Source of the DNA: Candidatus Krumholzibacteriota bacterium
GTDB lineage: Bacteria; Krumholzibacteriota; Krumholzibacteriia; JAJRXK01
Reading direction: 5' to 3'
Length of the DNA: 64,000 nt
Assembly (NCBI GenBank): GCA_029262065.1
Contig: JAJDAC010000019.1
Span: forward strand, 1 to 64,000
A program made the translations under genes and the position numbers. A model generated the notes under the pieces. That model made no database searches, had not been told where the DNA came from, and was given only the letters and a program-made list of their open reading frames with translations. Below are positions 14,431 to 24,977 of the stretch, piece after piece (position 1 is the first letter of the stretch; each line of letters opens with the position of its first letter).

Positions 14431-14626
14431 GCGGCTCCCGGCGAGTCGAGGGGTCCAATTCGGCGGCGCATGATAGCATAGGCGTGCGGTCACGTTGACC
14501 CTTGGAGCGGCACACCTTAGACTGGAACTTCAGCCCTGGTTGGGATCGGTCCCCCAGGGCTATTGCTTTGCTTGGCCCGCAGGTCGATCCATCCTTCGGG
14601 CCCAACCAGAAACTGTCGAGGACTCC

Positions 14627-15607
14627 ATGCGCACGCTGATCACTGGCTTTACCGGATTCGTCGGTAGCCACCTGGCCGACTACCTGCTCGCCCAGGGTGG
14701 CAACGAGGTATTCGGGTTGTACCGGTGGCGCAGCCGCTTCGAGAACGTCTCGCACCTGACCGATAAGGTCACCATGGTCGAAGGTGACATCGCCGACGCC
14801 ACGGCCATGAACCAGATCATCCAACGAGTGCGCCCCGACCGCATCTACCACCTGGCCGCGCAATCGTTCGTGCCCACCAGCTGGACCAGCCCCAACGCCA
14901 CGCTCGATGTGAATGTGCAGGGGCAGATCAACGTGTTCGAGGCCGTGCGATTGGCCGGGCTGAAGACCCGCATCCAGATTGCCGGCAGCAGTGAAGAGTA
15001 CGGACTGGTGCATCCCGACGAGGTGCCCATCCGCGAAGACAACCCGCTGCGCCCGTTGTCGCCCTACGCGGTGAGCAAGGTCACCCAGGACATGCTGGGC
15101 TACCAATACCACCAGTCCTACGGTCTGGACGTGGTGCGTACGCGCGGCTTCAACCACACCGGGCCCCGCCGAGGCTCGGTGTTCGTGTGCAGCAACTTTG
15201 CCTATCAGATCGCGCGCATCGAACGCGGCCTGCAGGCTCCCATGCTGCGCGTGGGAAACCTGGAAGCGCGCCGCGACTTCACCGACGTGCGTGACATGGT
15301 CCGGGCCTACGTGGCGGCGCTGGATTCGGGCAAGTCCGGCGAGGTGTACAACATATGTAGAGGCACCAGCTGGAGTATCCAGGAGGTGCTGGACATGTTG
15401 CTGGCCATGAGCGACGCCAAGGTAAAGGTCGAGAAGGATCCCGAGCGCATGCGCCCCAGCGACGTGCTCATCCTGGAGGGCAGCGCCGACAAGTTCAAAG
15501 CCGACACCGGCTGGGAACCCACCATCCCCTTCGAAACCACCCTGCGCGAGATTCTGGAGTACTGGCGCAAGGCGCTCGACGAGAACTCGAATCCCGACCC
15601 CCGCTAG
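14627..15607 (+). CDS. GDP-mannose 4,6-dehydratase-like SDR
   Basis: 326 residues from ATG 14627. NAD(P)-binding T-G-F-T-G-F-V-G-S-H at 7-16, the catalytic region S-S-E-E-Y-G, and Y-A-V-S-K with the Tyr/Lys pair. The segment Y-R-W-R-S-R and N-H-T-G-P-R-R-G-S resemble GDP-mannose 4,6-dehydratases, which make GDP-4-keto-6-deoxymannose. The following gene, 11 bases on, is a second SDR of the same subfamily, consistent with a dehydratase-reductase pair making GDP-rhamnose or GDP-fucose-type sugars. dTDP- or UDP-sugar substrates cannot be excluded. Confidence 0.85.
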   Translation: MRTLITGFTGFVGSHLADYLLAQGGNEVFGLYRWRSRFENVSHLTDKVTMVEGDIADATAMNQIIQRVRPDRIYHLAAQSFVPTSWTSPNATLDVNVQGQINVFEAVRLAGLKTRIQIAGSSEEYGLVHPDEVPIREDNPLRPLSPYAVSKVTQDMLGYQYHQSYGLDVVRTRGFNHTGPRRGSVFVCSNFAYQIARIERGLQAPMLRVGNLEARRDFTDVRDMVRAYVAALDSGKSGEVYNICRGTSWSIQEVLDMLLAMSDAKVKVEKDPERMRPSDVLILEGSADKFKADTGWEPTIPFETTLREILEYWRKALDENSNPDPR

Positions 15608-15618
15608 CGGAGCCCTCC

Positions 15619-16617
15619 ATGAGTCAAGCCAATCGAAAGCTCTGGGTAACCGGGTGCTTCGGCTTCGTGGGAGCGCACGTGGCGCAGCTACTGTCCGGCC
15701 GCGGCGTCGAAGTAGTGGCGATCGATCGACCAAATCGACCCGCCCCGCCCGGCTTCGAGGGGCGCATCCTATCTTTGGAACTGAGCAACGAGAAAGCCGT
15801 GGCCGAGGCCCTACGAGCCGAACAGCCCAGCGGAATCCTGCATCTGGCGGCCCAAAGCAGCGCGGCGCGCTCGTTTACCCACCCGGCCGAGACGTTCAAG
15901 GCCAATCTGGGGACCACGCTCGGTGTCCTGGAGGGACTCAGGCACTGCGGCCTGGAGGGCGCCACCCCGCGCCTGCTTTCGGTCGGAAGCTGCGAAGAAT
16001 ACGGTGCGCCGCTGGAGCACGAGCTGCCTTTGGGCGAGGAACAGCCGCTGCGGCCCTCCAGTCCCTACGCGGTCAGCAAAGTGGCTCAGACATTGCTTTG
16101 CCGGCAGTACCGCCAGAATTACGGATTGCCCATCCTGTGCACCCGCAGTTTCACCCATACCGGCCCCGGGCAGCGGGAAGCATTCGTGTTCAGCAGCTTC
16201 GCCAAACAGATTGCCCAGGCCGAACAGCGGGCCCAACTACAGGGAGACCCCGGTGTATTGAAGGTAGGAAACCTTGAGGCGGTGAGGGACATCAGCGACG
16301 TCCGCGACGTGGCCCGGGCCTACGTAGACCTCATGGATGCCGACTGGACTTTCGACCTGGTGAACGTGTGCAGTGGAAAGAGTATTTCCATTCGCGACGG
16401 CTTGGACCATCTTCTGGCGGCCGCCAGAGTCGACCTGAAGGCCGAAGTAGACCCCACGCGCTTGCGTCCGGCCGACGTTCCGCGTTTCGTGGGGGACCCG
16501 GCGCGACTCGAATCGATGCTGGGCTGGACGCCAGCGCCGGCGCTACCTGCGGCCCTGGATGATCTGCTCGAGTGGTGGCGATCGAATCTTGATGCAATGA
16601 CGACCGAACGCACCTAG
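15619..16617 (+). CDS. NAD-dependent epimerase/dehydratase, likely GDP-4-keto-6-deoxymannose reductase
   Basis: 332 residues. Rossmann motif T-G-C-F-G-F-V-G-A-H, catalytic S-C-E-E-Y-G and Y-A-V-S-K, F-T-H-T-G-P-G-Q. It is a clear paralogue of the gene just upstream and shares R-P-A-D-V-P-R-F near its C-terminus, a motif I associate with the RMD/GMD group. The role as the reductase partner is inferred from the pairing. It is followed 29 bases later by UDP-glucose dehydrogenase. Confidence 0.8.
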   Translation: MSQANRKLWVTGCFGFVGAHVAQLLSGRGVEVVAIDRPNRPAPPGFEGRILSLELSNEKAVAEALRAEQPSGILHLAAQSSAARSFTHPAETFKANLGTTLGVLEGLRHCGLEGATPRLLSVGSCEEYGAPLEHELPLGEEQPLRPSSPYAVSKVAQTLLCRQYRQNYGLPILCTRSFTHTGPGQREAFVFSSFAKQIAQAEQRAQLQGDPGVLKVGNLEAVRDISDVRDVARAYVDLMDADWTFDLVNVCSGKSISIRDGLDHLLAAARVDLKAEVDPTRLRPADVPRFVGDPARLESMLGWTPAPALPAALDDLLEWWRSNLDAMTTERT

Positions 16618-16646: not shown

Positions 16647-17954
16647 GTGGCAAAGATCTGCATGGTAGGAACGGGATACGTAGGACTGGTATCCGGAGCG
16701 TGCTTCGCCGACTTCGGCCACGAAGTCGTATGCGTAGACATCAACCCCCGACGCATCGAGTCGCTCGAGCGCGGCGAGATTCCTTTCTACGAACCCGGAC
16801 TGGGTGAGTTGGTAACGCGCAACGTCGAGGCCGGCCGCCTGCGATTCACCACCGAACTTGGACCAGCCGTGAAGGCTTCGCAGGTCATGTTCATCGGCGT
16901 GCAAACGCCCAGCGCTCCGTCGGGCGAGGCCGACCTGAGCTTCGTGATGAAAGTGGCCCAGCAGATCGGCCGCGAACTGCCGGCCGACGAGTACAAGCTG
17001 GTAGTCACCAAGAGCACCGTTCCCGTGGGCACCGCCCGCAAGGTGGCGGCCGTGCTGAAGGAACATGCCAAGCCCACGGCGCGCTTCGGGGTGGCCAGCA
17101 ATCCCGAATTCCTGCGCGAGGGTAGCTCGGTCGAGGACTTCATGCGCCCCGACCGTGTGGTCATTGGCGTGGATTCGCAGGAAGCGGAAGAACTCATGCG
17201 CGCGCTGTACCGGCCGTTGTACCTGCTGGACACGCCCATCGTGGCTACGACCGTGGAAAGCGCCGAGCTCATCAAGTACGCGTCCAACGCGTACCTGGCC
17301 GTGAAGATCAGCTTCATCAACGAGATATCGAACCTGTGCGAGAAGGTCGGCGCCGACGTCAACGTCGTGGCCCGGTCGATGGGTCTGGACAAGCGTATCG
17401 GGTCCAAGTTCCTGCACGCCGGCTTGGGCTACGGCGGCTCATGTCTGCCCAAGGACACGCGCGCCATCGTCCACATGGCCGGTGAGACCGACGAATCCAT
17501 GCGCATCATCAGCGCCGCCATCGCCGTAAATGAAGAACGCACGATCCGGGCGATCGAGAAATTGGAGAAGCTCACCGGTGGGCTGAAAGGCAAGACCGTC
17601 GGACTGCTGGGGCTGGCCTTCAAACCCAACACCGACGACGTACGCGAGGCCCCGGCGTTGCGCATCGTTCCGGCGCTGCGCGAACGCGGCGCCATCGTGC
17701 GCGGCTGCGACCCCAAAGCCGAAGAGACCTTCCTGCGGGAGATCGGCGACCTGGAGATCGTGAAGAGCGCCTATGCCTGCGCCGAGGGTGCCCACGCGTT
17801 GGTGCTGACCACCGAGTGGAACCCGTACCGCGAACTGGATCTCGAAGAGATCAAGCGGTCGATGAAGGACCCGGTGTTCCTGGACTGCCGTAACGTCTAC
17901 GACCGTCCCCGCATGGAAGCCATGGGCTTCCGCTATGACTGCTTCGGGCGCTGA
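16647..17954 (+). CDS. UDP-glucose/GDP-mannose 6-dehydrogenase
   Basis: Oxidises a nucleotide hexose to the uronic acid for surface polysaccharide. 435 residues from GTG 16647. N-terminal NAD fold G-T-G-Y-V-G-L-V at 8-15, substrate loop E-F-L-R-E-G, catalytic C266 in G-Y-G-G-S-C-L-P-K-D, and the C-terminal L-A-F-K-P-N-T-D-D. Closest in feel to UDP-glucose 6-dehydrogenase (Ugd). The stop overlaps the flippase start by 20 bases. Confidence 0.92.
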   Translation: MAKICMVGTGYVGLVSGACFADFGHEVVCVDINPRRIESLERGEIPFYEPGLGELVTRNVEAGRLRFTTELGPAVKASQVMFIGVQTPSAPSGEADLSFVMKVAQQIGRELPADEYKLVVTKSTVPVGTARKVAAVLKEHAKPTARFGVASNPEFLREGSSVEDFMRPDRVVIGVDSQEAEELMRALYRPLYLLDTPIVATTVESAELIKYASNAYLAVKISFINEISNLCEKVGADVNVVARSMGLDKRIGSKFLHAGLGYGGSCLPKDTRAIVHMAGETDESMRIISAAIAVNEERTIRAIEKLEKLTGGLKGKTVGLLGLAFKPNTDDVREAPALRIVPALRERGAIVRGCDPKAEETFLREIGDLEIVKSAYACAEGAHALVLTTEWNPYRELDLEEIKRSMKDPVFLDCRNVYDRPRMEAMGFRYDCFGR

Positions 17955-19374
17955 CTCGGCCCCGGCGGGCCTTTTCTGGAATCTGATTTCAGCCGTCGTG
18001 CCGCTGGTGGGCAGCTTCCTGGTGTCGCTGCTCATTGCCCCCTACCTGGGTCCGCGCGGTTTCGGCCTGTACATGACCGTGATGACGGCGGCCACGCTGT
18101 TGCTCATTGTGGGCAAGTTCGGAATCCACGCGGCCACCAGCCGACTCCTCAGCGAACACGAAGACGAAGCGGGGCTCTGGCTACGCGTGGGCCTGGGCCT
18201 GCGATTGGTATTCACGTTGGCCGTGGCCGGCCTGGCCACGTTGGCGCGACCGTGGCTAAGTGACCTTCTGGGCGGCGAGGATCTGGACTCGGCCATGAAC
18301 CTGGTGGGCGCGGTGATCGTATCGGCCAGCCTGTACGAAATGACCACCGAATCCCTGGTGGGGTTACGCCGCTTTCGCACGTTGTTGGTGACACGCCTGG
18401 CGTTTCTGGCCCTGCGGCTGGGAGTGATCGCCTGGGTGCGCTGGGGCGCGTTGGGCGTTACCGCGTTCCTGGCCGGGCACGCGTCGTCGCAGGCGTTGCC
18501 GGCCGTGGTGGTGCTGGGTTGGATGCTGTTGCACTACCGCATGCCCGCCCCGAGCTCCACCACCGGGCGCGACGCGCTGGCCCAGACGTGGCGCATCAGC
18601 GTGCCGCTGGCCGTGGGTTCAGCCAGCTTCCTGGCCTACGCGCACACCGACCGGGCCATGTTGGCGGCGTTGGCCAGTCCCGAGGCCGTGGGTCAGTTTG
18701 GCGTGGCGCGCAACATCATGGACGCCGCGTTGTTTCCGGTGTTTGCGCTGGGCTGGTCGTTGCGACCGGCGCTGGTGCGGGCGGTGGCGGCCAGGAATGA
18801 AGATCCCGACCGCGTCCAACGCGAACTCGGTGATGGCTTCCGGTATTCGCTGTTCTTCGGCATCGCCATGCCGGTGTTGCTGGCCGTCTACGGTGTCCCG
18901 CTTCTGGTCCATCTGTACGGGCCGGAGTACACCGAGGCCAGCCGCCTCCTGCTATGGATGTTGCCGGTGCTGGCCATCCGGGCTCTGGGCGCGCTGGTGT
19001 TTCCGGCGCTGCTGGCCGCCGATGCGCAGGCCCACTACGCAAAGCTCATGGGCGCGACCGCACTGGTCAACGTGTTGGCTAACGCACTGCTGATTCCTCG
19101 CTACGGTGCCGTCGGCGCGGTGGTGGCTACATTCTTGTCACTGGTCCCGCTCACGGCCGGCGGGTTTCTGGAGATTTCGCGTCGACTGGGATCGATTGCC
19201 TGGCGCCCGCACGCCAGCTGGCTGGGTCGATCGCTGGCGCTGGTCGCCGCGATTGGGGCGGTAGGCCTGGTGACACGGCCCGATTCGATGTTGGGACAGT
19301 TGGTGGCGGCAACGCTGGCTGGCGGACTCATCGGTCTGATCGGGTTTGGCGTGCCGCGCCGATTCAGGCCCTGA
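17935..19374 (+). CDS. polysaccharide flippase (Wzx/MOP superfamily)
   Basis: 479 residues with 12-14 hydrophobic segments beginning N-L-I-S-A-V-V-P-L-V-G-S-F-L-V, typical of the oligosaccharidyl-lipid flippase family. It would move lipid-linked repeat units across the inner membrane. It starts inside the end of the dehydrogenase gene (20-base overlap). Its neighbours make nucleotide sugars (upstream) and the polyprenyl-phosphate sugar primer (downstream), so a complete start-and-export route for a glycan is encoded here. Confidence 0.9.
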   Translation: MTASGADSAPAGLFWNLISAVVPLVGSFLVSLLIAPYLGPRGFGLYMTVMTAATLLLIVGKFGIHAATSRLLSEHEDEAGLWLRVGLGLRLVFTLAVAGLATLARPWLSDLLGGEDLDSAMNLVGAVIVSASLYEMTTESLVGLRRFRTLLVTRLAFLALRLGVIAWVRWGALGVTAFLAGHASSQALPAVVVLGWMLLHYRMPAPSSTTGRDALAQTWRISVPLAVGSASFLAYAHTDRAMLAALASPEAVGQFGVARNIMDAALFPVFALGWSLRPALVRAVAARNEDPDRVQRELGDGFRYSLFFGIAMPVLLAVYGVPLLVHLYGPEYTEASRLLLWMLPVLAIRALGALVFPALLAADAQAHYAKLMGATALVNVLANALLIPRYGAVGAVVATFLSLVPLTAGGFLEISRRLGSIAWRPHASWLGRSLALVAAIGAVGLVTRPDSMLGQLVAATLAGGLIGLIGFGVPRRFRP

Positions 19375-19514: not shown

Positions 19515-20633
19515 TTGCAGATTTCGGCCGCCCTGTTCGGATTCGCCGTCGCGTGTCTGTTGTCCTTGGGCTTCACGCCTCTCGTCCAGCGTCTCGCGCA
19601 GCGACGCAATCTGTGGGACCAGCCGGGTCCCCGGAAGATCCACACGACCGCCCGGCCCCACATCGGTGGGTTGGCCATGGTGGCGGCCCTGGTTCTGACC
19701 CTAGTAGCGCTTAGCCTGACCTTTCGGGACCTGCCGCCCGCATTCACGTCGCTGGTCCGCGGCCTGGTGATGGCGGGCACCCTGGTGGCCGTGTTGGGCC
19801 TGATCGATGACATGCAGGGCAGCCGCCCATGGAAGAAGCTGGCTACGCAGGCGGTGGCGTTGGCCATGCTGCAGACCTACGCCGATGTACTGGGATGGCA
19901 AACGCTGGTTACCGCGAGCCTCGGGCTGAAGATTGTAGCCGCTGTCTTGACAACGGGTTGGCTGCTGGGCCTGACCAATGCAATGAACCTGATCGACGGC
20001 TTGGACGGCCTGGCCACCGGCACGGCGGCGATCGGCGGGCTGGGCACCGCGATCCTTGCCTGGATCCTGGGCGAGCCGGCCATCGCGTTGATTGCCGCGA
20101 CGCTCGTGGGCTGTGCGCTTGGTTTCCTGCGCAGCAACGCTCCCCCGGCCAAGATCTTCATGGGCGACACCGGTAGCATGTTCCTGGGGTTCGTACTGGC
20201 CGCTCTGGGTGCCTGCCTGTTCTGGCGCCAGCCCTCGACCACCACGGCGCTGGGACTCCTTTTCCTACACTGGGTTCCGTGCCTGGACGCCCTGCTCACA
20301 CTGGTGCGCCGACTGGTAACCAAGGTCAGTATCTTCGAGCCCGATCATGGGCACGTGCATCACCGCCTGCTGGACCTGGGCCTGTCGCAACGCCACGCCG
20401 GCCTTTCCCTGTGGGCGCTGTCTACGCTGGGTGCAGTGGCCGGCTTGCAAATCGTTCTGGGAAAGCCGCTGTGGGCGTGGTCAGGCGCGATACTTACCGC
20501 TACCTTGCCCTTGGCCTTCATCCTGCGTAGCTCGCAGGTTCGCGCGTCACTTCGGGGTGCTCCCCTCGACCCGGCCGCGGCTGGCCAGGATGCGCCTTTG
20601 ACGGCCCACCTTACGGGTGAGCGAGCGGCCTGA
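19515..20633 (+). CDS. polyprenyl-phosphate sugar-1-phosphate transferase (WecA/TagO type)
   Basis: Integral membrane enzyme that primes glycan synthesis by moving HexNAc-1-P from UDP onto undecaprenyl phosphate. 372 residues from TTG 19515, about 10-11 membrane segments. Signature motifs in order: G-G-L-A at 51-54, D98-D99 in L-I-D-D-M, N-A-M-N-L-I-D-G-L-D-G at 155-165, F-M-G-D-T-G-S at about 215, and the cytoplasmic H-x-H-H-R loop (H-G-H-V-H-H-R-L-L-D) that marks WecA rather than MraY. The sugar it uses is not determined by these motifs. Confidence 0.92.
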   Translation: MQISAALFGFAVACLLSLGFTPLVQRLAQRRNLWDQPGPRKIHTTARPHIGGLAMVAALVLTLVALSLTFRDLPPAFTSLVRGLVMAGTLVAVLGLIDDMQGSRPWKKLATQAVALAMLQTYADVLGWQTLVTASLGLKIVAAVLTTGWLLGLTNAMNLIDGLDGLATGTAAIGGLGTAILAWILGEPAIALIAATLVGCALGFLRSNAPPAKIFMGDTGSMFLGFVLAALGACLFWRQPSTTTALGLLFLHWVPCLDALLTLVRRLVTKVSIFEPDHGHVHHRLLDLGLSQRHAGLSLWALSTLGAVAGLQIVLGKPLWAWSGAILTATLPLAFILRSSQVRASLRGAPLDPAAAGQDAPLTAHLTGERAA

Positions 20634-20723: not shown

Positions 20724-21782
20724 ATGAAGAAGACCCTGACCATCGGGGCACCTGACAGCGACCTGTCCCGTGCCCACGCGCAGACCGTGGTAAGTCGCCT
20801 GCGCTCGGCCGTGGACTACGCAATCCATCTGGAGCTGTTCGACCTGCGATCGCAGGCCGAGAACGATTTCCACGACGACCATATTGCCACGAACCGAGCC
20901 GTGATCGAGGCCCTGCACGATCAACTCCGCGACGGCGAAGTGGATATGGTCATCCACACGGGCTTCGATCTGCGCGGGCAGGTCCACTCGGATTTCCGCG
21001 TGGCCGCCATTCTGCAACGACTGTCGCCGTACGACGCGCTGCTGTCGCCCCTGGAGCAGAGTCTGGACGAGCTTGAAGACGGCACCCGTCTGGGGGTGGT
21101 GCAGCTTCGCGCGCGGGCGCAGTTGTTGGAGCACCGACCCGACCTGGATGTAGAGCTGGTGGCCGGCGACGTGGGCCACTGGCTCACTGCGTTGATCGAC
21201 GGCGACATCGAGGCCTTGGTCGCACCCAATGCCGCGTTGGAGCAGCTGGGGCTGCACGATCGCGTGAGCGAGATCTTCCCGCCCGAAATGGTGGTCCCGG
21301 CACCGTGCTCGGGGGTGTTGGTGTGCGTCGCCCGTGCCGATGACGATCAAACCCAACAACGAGTGAAAGCACTGCACCACGTGCCCACGGCCCAGGAGTA
21401 CGCCGCCGAAATAGCGTTCATGGAAGCCCTGGGCGGGGCCTGGCAGCATCCGGTAGGTACGCTGGCGCAGTCGGTGCGCGACGAAATGGCCGTCATGGGA
21501 CTGGTCGCCAGCCCCGATGGCTCGCAGATTCTGCGACGCGGCATCCAGGCCGCGGCCACCGACCCCGAGGCCATCGGCGAGACATTGGCCGAGCTTCTGC
21601 TGGAGCAAGGCGCCGGGGATTTGCTGGAGGGTCTGGACGGCGGCGACGCCGGTTCGATTTCGGGGCTGTTCCTGGCCAGTCACCTGGAAGTCGAGGTCGA
21701 GGCAGACGATGCCGACGCCGACGTGTACGATCTGGGGGCCTTCGACGTACTCGACCGCGACGAAGACCAGGAAACTTTCTGA
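20724..21782 (+). CDS. degenerate hydroxymethylbilane synthase homologue (probable pseudoenzyme)
   Basis: 352 residues that align by eye with HemC along its length: G-E-V-D-M-V-I-H at 71-78, L-G-V-V-Q-L-R-A-R-A-Q-L at 123-134, E-H-R-P-D-L, D-V-G-H-W-L, L-E-Q-L-G-L, and S-P-D-G-S-Q-I-L near the C-terminal domain. Yet the residues HemC needs are lost. The H-S-M-K-D loop is H-T-G-F-D, the S-S-L-R-R arginine pair is V-Q-L-R-A, V-G-Q-G is P-C-S-G, and the G-G-C-x-x-P-x-G loop that binds the dipyrromethane cofactor is G-G-A-W-Q-H-P-V-G with no cysteine. It also carries an acidic C-terminal tail (321-352). It is probably not a porphobilinogen polymerase. No other haem gene is nearby. Confidence 0.8.
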   Translation: MKKTLTIGAPDSDLSRAHAQTVVSRLRSAVDYAIHLELFDLRSQAENDFHDDHIATNRAVIEALHDQLRDGEVDMVIHTGFDLRGQVHSDFRVAAILQRLSPYDALLSPLEQSLDELEDGTRLGVVQLRARAQLLEHRPDLDVELVAGDVGHWLTALIDGDIEALVAPNAALEQLGLHDRVSEIFPPEMVVPAPCSGVLVCVARADDDQTQQRVKALHHVPTAQEYAAEIAFMEALGGAWQHPVGTLAQSVRDEMAVMGLVASPDGSQILRRGIQAAATDPEAIGETLAELLLEQGAGDLLEGLDGGDAGSISGLFLASHLEVEVEADDADADVYDLGAFDVLDRDEDQETF

Positions 21783-21812
21783 GTTCTGGCTGAGTTCTGG
21801 CTGAGTTCTGGC
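21780..21812 (+). repeat. three tandem copies of an 11-bp unit
   Basis: TGAGTTCTGGC occurs at 21780-21790, 21791-21801 and 21802-21812 without a mismatch. The first three bases of unit one are the stop codon of the HemC-like gene. A slipped-strand product at the gene end is the simplest reading. Confidence 0.9.
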
Positions 21813-21874
21813 TGCGCGGCGCGAGTTCTACCTGAACACCCACGATACCCAATTGCGAACGAGGAGCCCCTCCC

Positions 21875-22846
21875 ATGGCGAAGCTGATCGATACCCTTCT
21901 GTTGCTGGCCCTTCCTGCTTCGGGAAAATCTGAAGTACGACGCTACATGGCGTCAGTCAGCCCCGAGCGGTGTCGCAACGAGTTCCACATGGGCGAGACG
22001 GTACAGTTGGACGACTACCCGTACGTGCACATGATGCGACGCATTTCGCAGGAGCTTCGCAACCTCGGCACCACGGGCGGGTTCTTCGACAGCGACGCTG
22101 AACCCATGAAGGAGCCGTTGGACTGGGGCACCCTGATCGAGCTGATCAACGAGGACTACGAAGACCTCACCGCGTCGCCCTCGCTGAAGAATGTTTCGGC
22201 CGGCGCCTGGTTGGTCGAACGATTCGACAATGCACGCGCCAAGGTCGGCGCCACGCCGTTGAGCGAGCACCTGACGGCCGACCAGCGTACGGCGCTGGCG
22301 GCGGCGATCGACGAAGAGGCGGCCGAGCTTTTGAAAGACAAGCTGGCGGGTATTCCGGACTCACTGGACGGGCGCACGATCGTCATCGAGTTCGCGCGCG
22401 GCGGGGCGCAGGGAAGCAGCATGCCGCTGGCTGCGCCGTTTGGTTATCAGTATTCACTTTCGCGTCTCTCCGATCGCATTCTGGAGCGCGCGGCCATTCT
22501 GTACGTATGGGTTACGCCCGAAGAATCGCGCCGCAAGAACGAAGAGCGATCCAAACCAGGTCGCGACGGTGACGCGTCCATTCTGCACCACGGCGTACCC
22601 ATCCGCGTGATGTTGGAAGACTACGGAACCGACGACATGACCTACCTCATTGAGCAGTCGGGCAAAGCCGACCATGTGCGCGTGGAAACACGAGGCAAGT
22701 CGTTCGAGATTCCCGTCGCCCGCGTGGACAACCGCAGTGACCTGACGTCTTTCCTGCGCGCCGACGCGAACGATTGGGCCGAACAAGACGTGAAGAAGAT
22801 CCACGAGGCATTGGGATCGGCACTCACGACCCTGAGCCAGCACTGA
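21875..22846 (+). CDS. P-loop protein of unknown function
   Basis: 323 residues. A Walker A-like motif sits at the N-terminus after a hydrophobic strand (A12-L-P-A-S-G17-K18-S19). It is followed by L-D-D-Y-P-Y-V-H-M-M-R-R-I, a possible acceptor or Walker-B-like segment, and later by F-A-R-G-G-A-Q-G and L-Y-V-W-V-T-P-E-E-S-R-R-K-N, a kinase-like strand and lid. This looks like a nucleoside/shikimate-kinase-type fold, but no family is recognised. It starts 92 bases after the HemC-like gene on the same strand; the two may be one unit. Function unknown. Confidence 0.75.
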   Translation: MAKLIDTLLLLALPASGKSEVRRYMASVSPERCRNEFHMGETVQLDDYPYVHMMRRISQELRNLGTTGGFFDSDAEPMKEPLDWGTLIELINEDYEDLTASPSLKNVSAGAWLVERFDNARAKVGATPLSEHLTADQRTALAAAIDEEAAELLKDKLAGIPDSLDGRTIVIEFARGGAQGSSMPLAAPFGYQYSLSRLSDRILERAAILYVWVTPEESRRKNEERSKPGRDGDASILHHGVPIRVMLEDYGTDDMTYLIEQSGKADHVRVETRGKSFEIPVARVDNRSDLTSFLRADANDWAEQDVKKIHEALGSALTTLSQH

Positions 22847-24506: not shown

Positions 24507-24977
24507 ATGAATTCCCAGAAGAACCATTTGCGCTTTGCTCTCCTGGCGTCATTGGCGTTGGTGGCGACCCTCGCATCCGCTCCCACGAGCGGCTGGGCGC
24601 AAGAGAAGACCCTCTATGAACGGCTGGGCGGCTACGACGCCATCTCGGCCGTGGTCGACGACTTCGCCGCCAAACTGTTCGACGACCCCGTGGTGGGCGC
24701 GCGCTTCTTTGGCATGAGCGACGACTCGCGCGAGGGTTTTCGGCAGAAGAACAAGAATCTGGTGTGCATCGTAACCGGGGGCCCCTGCAAGGTGATCAGT
24801 CGCCCCGCCGCGGTGACCCACGGCGGTCTGGGCATCAAGGCCAGCGAGTTCAACATCGTGGTGAACCATCTGGTCGACACCCTGAACAAGTTCAAGGTGC
24901 CGAAGAAAGAACAGAAGGAGCTTATGGACATCATCGGCACGTTGCGACCGGACATCGTGGAAGTCGAGAACATGTAG
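24507..24977 (+). CDS. exported group I truncated haemoglobin
   Basis: 156 residues from ATG 24507, preceded by GAGGAGG. Signal peptide 1-31 ends S-G-W-A-Q; the globin follows (T-L-Y-E-R-L-G-G-Y-D-A-I-S-A-V-V-D-D-F). The proximal haem histidine is most likely H105 in V-T-H-G-G-L-G-I. Two cysteines (C87, C94) could form a disulfide outside the cytoplasm. TrHb1 proteins bind O2 or NO; an exported one would act in the periplasm. Export is read from the leader, not known for the family at large. Confidence 0.88.
   Translation: MNSQKNHLRFALLASLALVATLASAPTSGWAQEKTLYERLGGYDAISAVVDDFAAKLFDDPVVGARFFGMSDDSREGFRQKNKNLVCIVTGGPCKVISRPAAVTHGGLGIKASEFNIVVNHLVDTLNKFKVPKKEQKELMDIIGTLRPDIVEVENM

Follow-up and report, generated by a model that had tools for sequence, protein, structure and literature searches.

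The window analysed here is a stretch of 64,000 nucleotides (positions 1 to 64,000, forward strand, of contig JAJDAC010000019.1, or C19) from the 5.77-Mb, 95.6%-complete genome of a Candidatus Krumholzibacteriota bacterium. Within it lies a run of nucleotide-sugar and polysaccharide genes followed by an open reading frame that starts with ATG and encodes a protein of 352 residues resembling HemC, or porphobilinogen deaminase (Table 1). The protein matches PF01379 (2e-32, 112.9 bits) and PF03900 (6e-9, 36.5 bits) and scores 162.2 bits against TIGR00212, the HemC equivalog model, which is below the cut-off of 164; the true HemC of the same genome, with which it shares 26% identity, scores 282.0. 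The acidic tail remarked on in a preliminary description of this DNA spans about residues 308-352 and is predicted to be disordered; a tail of this kind is seen in the HemC-like proteins of families f1 (the family of the window) and f5. Starting at the HemC-like stop codon, and ahead of the gene for a P-loop protein (possibly a kinase), 11 bp are repeated perfectly in tandem (CTGAGTTCTGG x 3.3, positions 21779-21814); the repeat is a possible site of contraction or expansion. In genome G001 the P-loop gene overlaps the HemC-like gene by a few bases.

Table 1. Features of the HemC-like locus (window positions unless a locus is named).
Feature	Position	Strand	Remark
NDP-sugar epimerase/dehydratase (GDP_Man_Dehyd)	14495..15607	+	true start probably internal
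NDP-sugar epimerase/dehydratase (GDP_Man_Dehyd)	15619..16617	+	Pfam
UDP-glucose/GDP-mannose dehydrogenase	16647..17954	+	Pfam
Wzx-type flippase (Polysacc_synt)	17935..19374	+	Pfam
WecA-type polyprenyl-phosphate sugar-1-phosphate transferase (Glycos_transf_4)	19515..20633	+	directly upstream; commonest constant neighbour
HemC-like gene (inactivated HemC homologue)	20724..21782	+	352 aa; three-domain HemC fold residues 1-305; acidic disordered tail 308-352
Signature helix E173-x-LG-x-H178-xx-V-x-E183-I-F	21240..21275	+	E173, E183 invariant in 61/61; Q at 178 in 55/61
Cofactor loop, codons around G238-A239-W240	21440..21446	+	approximate, from residue number; W240 replaces cysteine (E. coli C242)
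P-loop protein, matches no Pfam family	21875..22846	+	after HemC-like gene in window and G001 only
Loci with the long gene order (see text)	L065:1-19494, L069, L070, L072, L147		

The AlphaFold2 model of the window protein (32 lineage members) has a mean pLDDT of 86.6, with values above 90 in the body of the protein and mostly below 50 after residue 307. Compared with the PDB by Foldseek, its 32 best matches are all HemC, with TM-scores (on the target) of up to 0.95, and of 0.89-0.95 among the top 10 bacterial matches; the statement in the preliminary description that the HemC fold is kept agrees with these solved structures. The second-ranked structural class comprises periplasmic-binding-type proteins, at TM-scores of about 0.3-0.5. 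A member of the lineage from a family without haem synthesis yielded a model with a pLDDT of 93.5 and a ranking of PDB matches identical to that of the window model. Since both models rank HemC first, the entire enzyme fold has been kept.

Residues are numbered here after a reference sequence that we take to be that of E. coli HemC, and which agrees with the PDB alignment wherever the two overlap. At R11, K55, K59, K83, R131, R132, R149, R155, R176 and R232 the window protein has P, H, N, F, R, A, A, W, Q and I: nine of the ten basic residues of the cleft are lost (in window numbering R11 to P10, K55 to H53, K59 to N57, K83 to F81, R132 to A130, R149 to A147, R155 to W153, R176 to Q174 and R232 to I), and R131, which is R129 of the window protein, is the sole survivor. 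It is likewise all that is left of the set that holds the pyrrole carboxylates (R11, K83, R131, R132, R149, R155, R176 and R232). The roles of R11, K55, K59, D84, R131, R132, R149, R155, R176 and R232 in the E. coli enzyme have been described (PMC3945110), as has that of C242, which carries the dipyrromethane cofactor (PMC8561815). In the window protein the cysteine is replaced within the sequence GGAWQHPVG, and because it is absent the cofactor cannot attach covalently. This loss had been recognised from the start, together with that of V-G-Q-G, which here reads P-C-S-G. Two further losses had been overstated: in the arginine pair the second residue has gone but the first persists in VQLRA, and in the active-site lysine-aspartate pair the lysine has gone but the catalytic aspartate stands, as D82 of the motif GFD (D84 of E. 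coli).

The window gene is one of many. PF01379 is matched in 70 of 80 Krumholzibacteriota genomes and the inactivated form, recognised by a lineage profile, is found in about 68 of the 80, of which 57 were read residue by residue and the remainder assigned by profile score. Outside the phylum we sampled one genome from each of about 120 further families and read some 60 HemC-like proteins; the inactivated kind appeared in genome G144 only, alongside a canonical copy. In the phylum to which this genome belongs the HemC-like gene is present, by position, in five of five genomes, and the four in which residues were read have identical losses and the same glutamates at positions 175 and 185. The lineage, spanning two phyla, is old. 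When 39 inactivated and 45 canonical proteins are placed in one tree, a single branch with 99% SH-aLRT support parts the two sets, and an earlier tree agrees: the HemC-like proteins have a single origin and form a derived lineage within the HemC fold family. Several independent inactivations are not favoured, all inactivated sequences falling on one side of that branch. Within Krumholzibacteriota most families of the inactivated form are single clades in the same tree, as would be expected of vertical descent; the canonical HemCs are scattered.

Residues were counted in 61 members of the lineage and in 45 canonical HemCs (60 or 44 where a position was unreadable). The cofactor cysteine is absent from 60 of 60 members and present in 45 of 45 canonical proteins; K83 remains in 3 of 61 (canonical 44 of 44), R132 in 6 of 61 and R155 in 4 of 61 (canonical 45 of 45 for both). 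R11 is kept in 14 of 60 members, R149 in 20 of 61, R176 in 11 of 61 and R131 in 44 of 61. The position of D84 holds an acid in 51 of 61 (34 Asp, 17 Glu), the window protein having Asp, and families f6 and f8 carry T, C, Y, M or H there.

The lineage also has constrained residues of its own, located in domain 2 and chosen after inspection of many alignment columns: Glu at position 175 (61/61 against 6/45 canonical proteins), Glu at 185 (61/61 against 16/45) and Gln at 180 (55/61 against 2/45; the window protein has H178 there), with additional lineage-specific positions beyond these three. Judged from the alignment, the conservation of both glutamates in every member across two phyla is not a pattern that drift would be expected to leave.

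Because the acid at D84 persists in most members, the chief alternative to a non-catalytic role is that the protein has gained a new enzyme activity. It would then catalyse a cofactor-free reaction on an intermediate of the sugar operon, by means of the D84 acid and R131 or of the new glutamates E173 and E183. Retention of the D84 acid and R131 would be odd for a site without any chemistry, the two glutamates are invariant, and the gene stands last in a biosynthetic operon. However, the substitutions at D84 in f6 and f8 speak against such a reaction, as does the old cofactor loop, near which the lineage alignment contains no lineage-specific polar residue within a shared motif; the sequence of this loop also varies by family. 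We consider a new enzyme unlikely.

Homologues of the neighbouring genes were mapped at 29 distinct loci carrying the HemC-like gene, and their domains checked by Pfam. Co-directional nucleotide-sugar or polysaccharide genes lie beside it at 29 of 29 loci, and it is the last gene of the biosynthetic operon. The gene immediately upstream encodes WecA at 19 loci (f1 including the window, f3, f6, f7, f8 and the second phylum), a DegT aminotransferase at eight (f5) and WecB at one (f4); at one further f4 locus genes without an assignment lie between. Downstream, families f3, f4, f6, f7 and f8 have SerS, a histidine kinase (HK), a PorX-like response regulator (receiver plus PglZ domain, identified by Pfam and by PDB sequence matches), TsaE and TsaB, and in the second phylum HK and PorX follow directly. 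In f1 and f5 the gene faces convergent PyrD-PyrK, with the P-loop gene coming first in two f1 genomes.

The order WecA, HemC-like, (SerS), HK, PorX in f3, f4, f6, f7 and f8, with HK directly adjacent in the second phylum, raises the possibility that the HemC-like protein belongs to one signalling module along with the kinase and the PorX-like regulator. In f1, the window's own family, and in f5, however, the HK-PorX cluster is elsewhere in the genome and the HemC-like gene is still with the sugar genes, which leaves the sugar operon as its constant partner. In addition, two genomes (G013 and G057) in which SerS directly follows WecA, with no room for a HemC-like gene, retain HK-PorX. A signalling role is on these grounds decidedly unlikely. 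The same two genomes, being clean losses, imply that the HemC-like gene is dispensable; family f2 has lost it as well.

Two further observations concern gene arrangement. The long order WecA – HemC-like – (SerS) – HK – PorX-like – TsaE – TsaB – AccD – FolC is common to Krumholzibacteriota families and the second phylum. In one genome of the second phylum (G196; L193:446-2494) no stop codon separates the WecA frame from the HemC-like part, and the two form an open reading frame of 682 residues with both Pfam domains; the same frame also holds an internal GGAGGAG...TTG start. A WecA/HemC-like fusion in this genome is possible, on the thin evidence of one metagenome assembly.

The genome of the window possesses a true hemC on contig C27, between a protoporphyrinogen-oxidase-like gene and hemB, with every motif kept (HSLKDVP, SLRRR, GGCVVP), and it has hemA as well as hemB. 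The preliminary description had set the lack of any other hemC as a refutation of its idea, which therefore withstands that test. Canonical hemC coexists with the HemC-like gene in families f1, f5 and f6. In f6 (L007, L026) canonical HemC sits within very long frames of 788 and 646 residues, which suggests fusion to the next haem gene or genes. A bacterial-like (truncated) globin with a likely signal peptide is encoded in the window at 24507-24977; no other gene for a haem protein lies near the HemC-like gene, and this one is not conserved across the related loci examined.

Elsewhere the haem pathway is missing. Searches covered 45 genomes for hemB, the same 45 for PF01379 and 24 for hemA (GlutR_N). 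Thirteen genomes that are at least 90% complete have the HemC-like gene and lack hemA, hemB and canonical hemC (G001, G005, G006, G009, G010, G016, G017, G020, G023, G026, G028, G031 and G037); the first of these belongs to the same family as the window. Metagenome-assembled genomes may miss genes, but three separate genes are missing in each of the 13, and an accident of assembly is therefore not the explanation. In families f3, f4, f8 and f7, and in G001, hemA, hemB and hemC have been lost together, and these bacteria appear unable to make tetrapyrroles.

These genomes bear directly on the idea that the protein regulates or assists haem synthesis, whether as a partner of true HemC or as a sensor of porphobilinogen or haem. 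Its HemC ancestry and the coexistence of a true hemC in f1, f5 and f6 would accord with such a role, and many pseudoenzymes regulate an active paralogue (for example PMC5201418). The 13 near-complete genomes nevertheless exclude haem regulation as the general role; the gene was found within a haem gene cluster at none of the 29 loci, and the basic side chains that would grip the pyrrole carboxylates have gone. We regard a haem-related function as highly improbable.

Over the shared body of the protein dN/dS is 0.09-0.23 (seven to nine close pairs), compared with 0.09-0.22 for canonical hemC: the HemC-like gene is under purifying selection. Pseudogene decay, or a HemC that has diverged yet stays active, might be suggested by a TIGR00212 score just under the cut-off and by the name that Pfam would give the gene, but either is barely credible given these ratios, the open frames in two phyla, the new invariant residues and the uniform loss of the cysteine; a pseudogene is ruled out by dN/dS and conservation. 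The claim of the preliminary description that the gene encodes a likely pseudoenzyme with a new role, distant from haem genes, is upheld by the separate canonical hemC, the lineage-wide loss of the cysteine, purifying selection and retention in genomes without hemA, hemB and hemC. Bacteria that lack haem synthesis keep the gene in a sugar operon, and it must therefore have acquired some other job; the specific role first put forward, ligand binding or regulation, is an inference.

Our own reading, which we find plausible and hold tentatively, is that the window gene belongs to an ancient lineage, derived from HemC, that has ceased to make hydroxymethylbilane and has a non-catalytic, binding-protein-like role in polysaccharide initiation or sugar sensing. 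The three-domain clamshell fold is retained and the basic cleft for the acidic pyrrole chain dismantled, leaving a protein that would work much as type II periplasmic binding proteins do, non-catalytically and in the cytosol. It may bind a sugar-nucleotide or a lipid-linked intermediate, or else another protein, through the re-made domain-2 surface that bears the invariant E173 and E183 and, in most members, Gln at 178. In this way it would act as regulator or scaffold of the first step of polysaccharide synthesis at the membrane (WecA, or the DegT branch), and so aid or sense an early step in the making of envelope polysaccharide. The genomic context of the gene is established, its mechanism inferred, and gene order alone is no proof of function. 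Against this reading stand the DegT neighbour that takes the place of WecA in f5, the cofactor loop, whose variation between families leaves no single obvious binding site, the retained D84 acid and R131, and the dispensability of the gene.

A narrower version assigns the HemC-fold protein to WecA-type lipid-linked sugar initiation, as a dedicated subunit or as a sensor of ligand. The cofactor cleft, now empty, would hold a sugar-nucleotide or a sugar linked to polyprenyl, and the protein, on occasion fused to WecA, would control the first committed step towards an envelope polysaccharide in two phyla. We think this unlikely.

Three known systems come closest to the lineage. With HemC (PF01379 plus PF03900, TIGR00212) the lineage shares the whole three-domain fold and the structural residues R101, P104, G199 and E231, to which the window copy adds D84 and R131. 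In contrast to HemC, it has neither the cofactor cysteine, the basic cleft nor linkage to haem genes, is kept without the haem pathway, and has new invariant residues and, in f1 and f5, the acidic tail. Lacking the cysteine and the basic cleft and falling short of the equivalog score, the protein should therefore not be filed as HemC. The HemC fold is related to that of type II periplasmic binding proteins, and the two-lobe part of the model finds its next-best matches there (MetQ, 4yah; PqqT, 9b1u; a TRAP substrate-binding protein, 7ntd; also Thi5), although at the modest TM-scores given above and with the third HemC domain as an addition; no signal peptide is seen in the sequence. The AdoMetDC prozyme (PMC5201418), an example of a pseudoenzyme that regulates an active partner, is likewise conserved despite catalytic degradation and likewise has a living enzyme as its paralogue. 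Unlike the prozyme, the HemC-like gene outlives its active counterpart and is found in an operon of unrelated function, and its partner is therefore probably not HemC.

HemC is among the most uniform enzymes of primary metabolism. In the open-access papers searched we found no description of a conserved HemC lineage without the cofactor cysteine, and nothing relevant on pseudoenzymes resembling HemC or on a connection between them and polysaccharide genes. The lineage carries a warning for annotation: Pfam, and for some members NCBIfam, will call hemC in genomes that are unable to make tetrapyrroles. The PorX-type regulator, occurring here outside Bacteroidota, is of interest in itself. This lineage of the HemC fold outlives the haem pathway, and its natural knockouts, together with the possible fusion, make its role testable.
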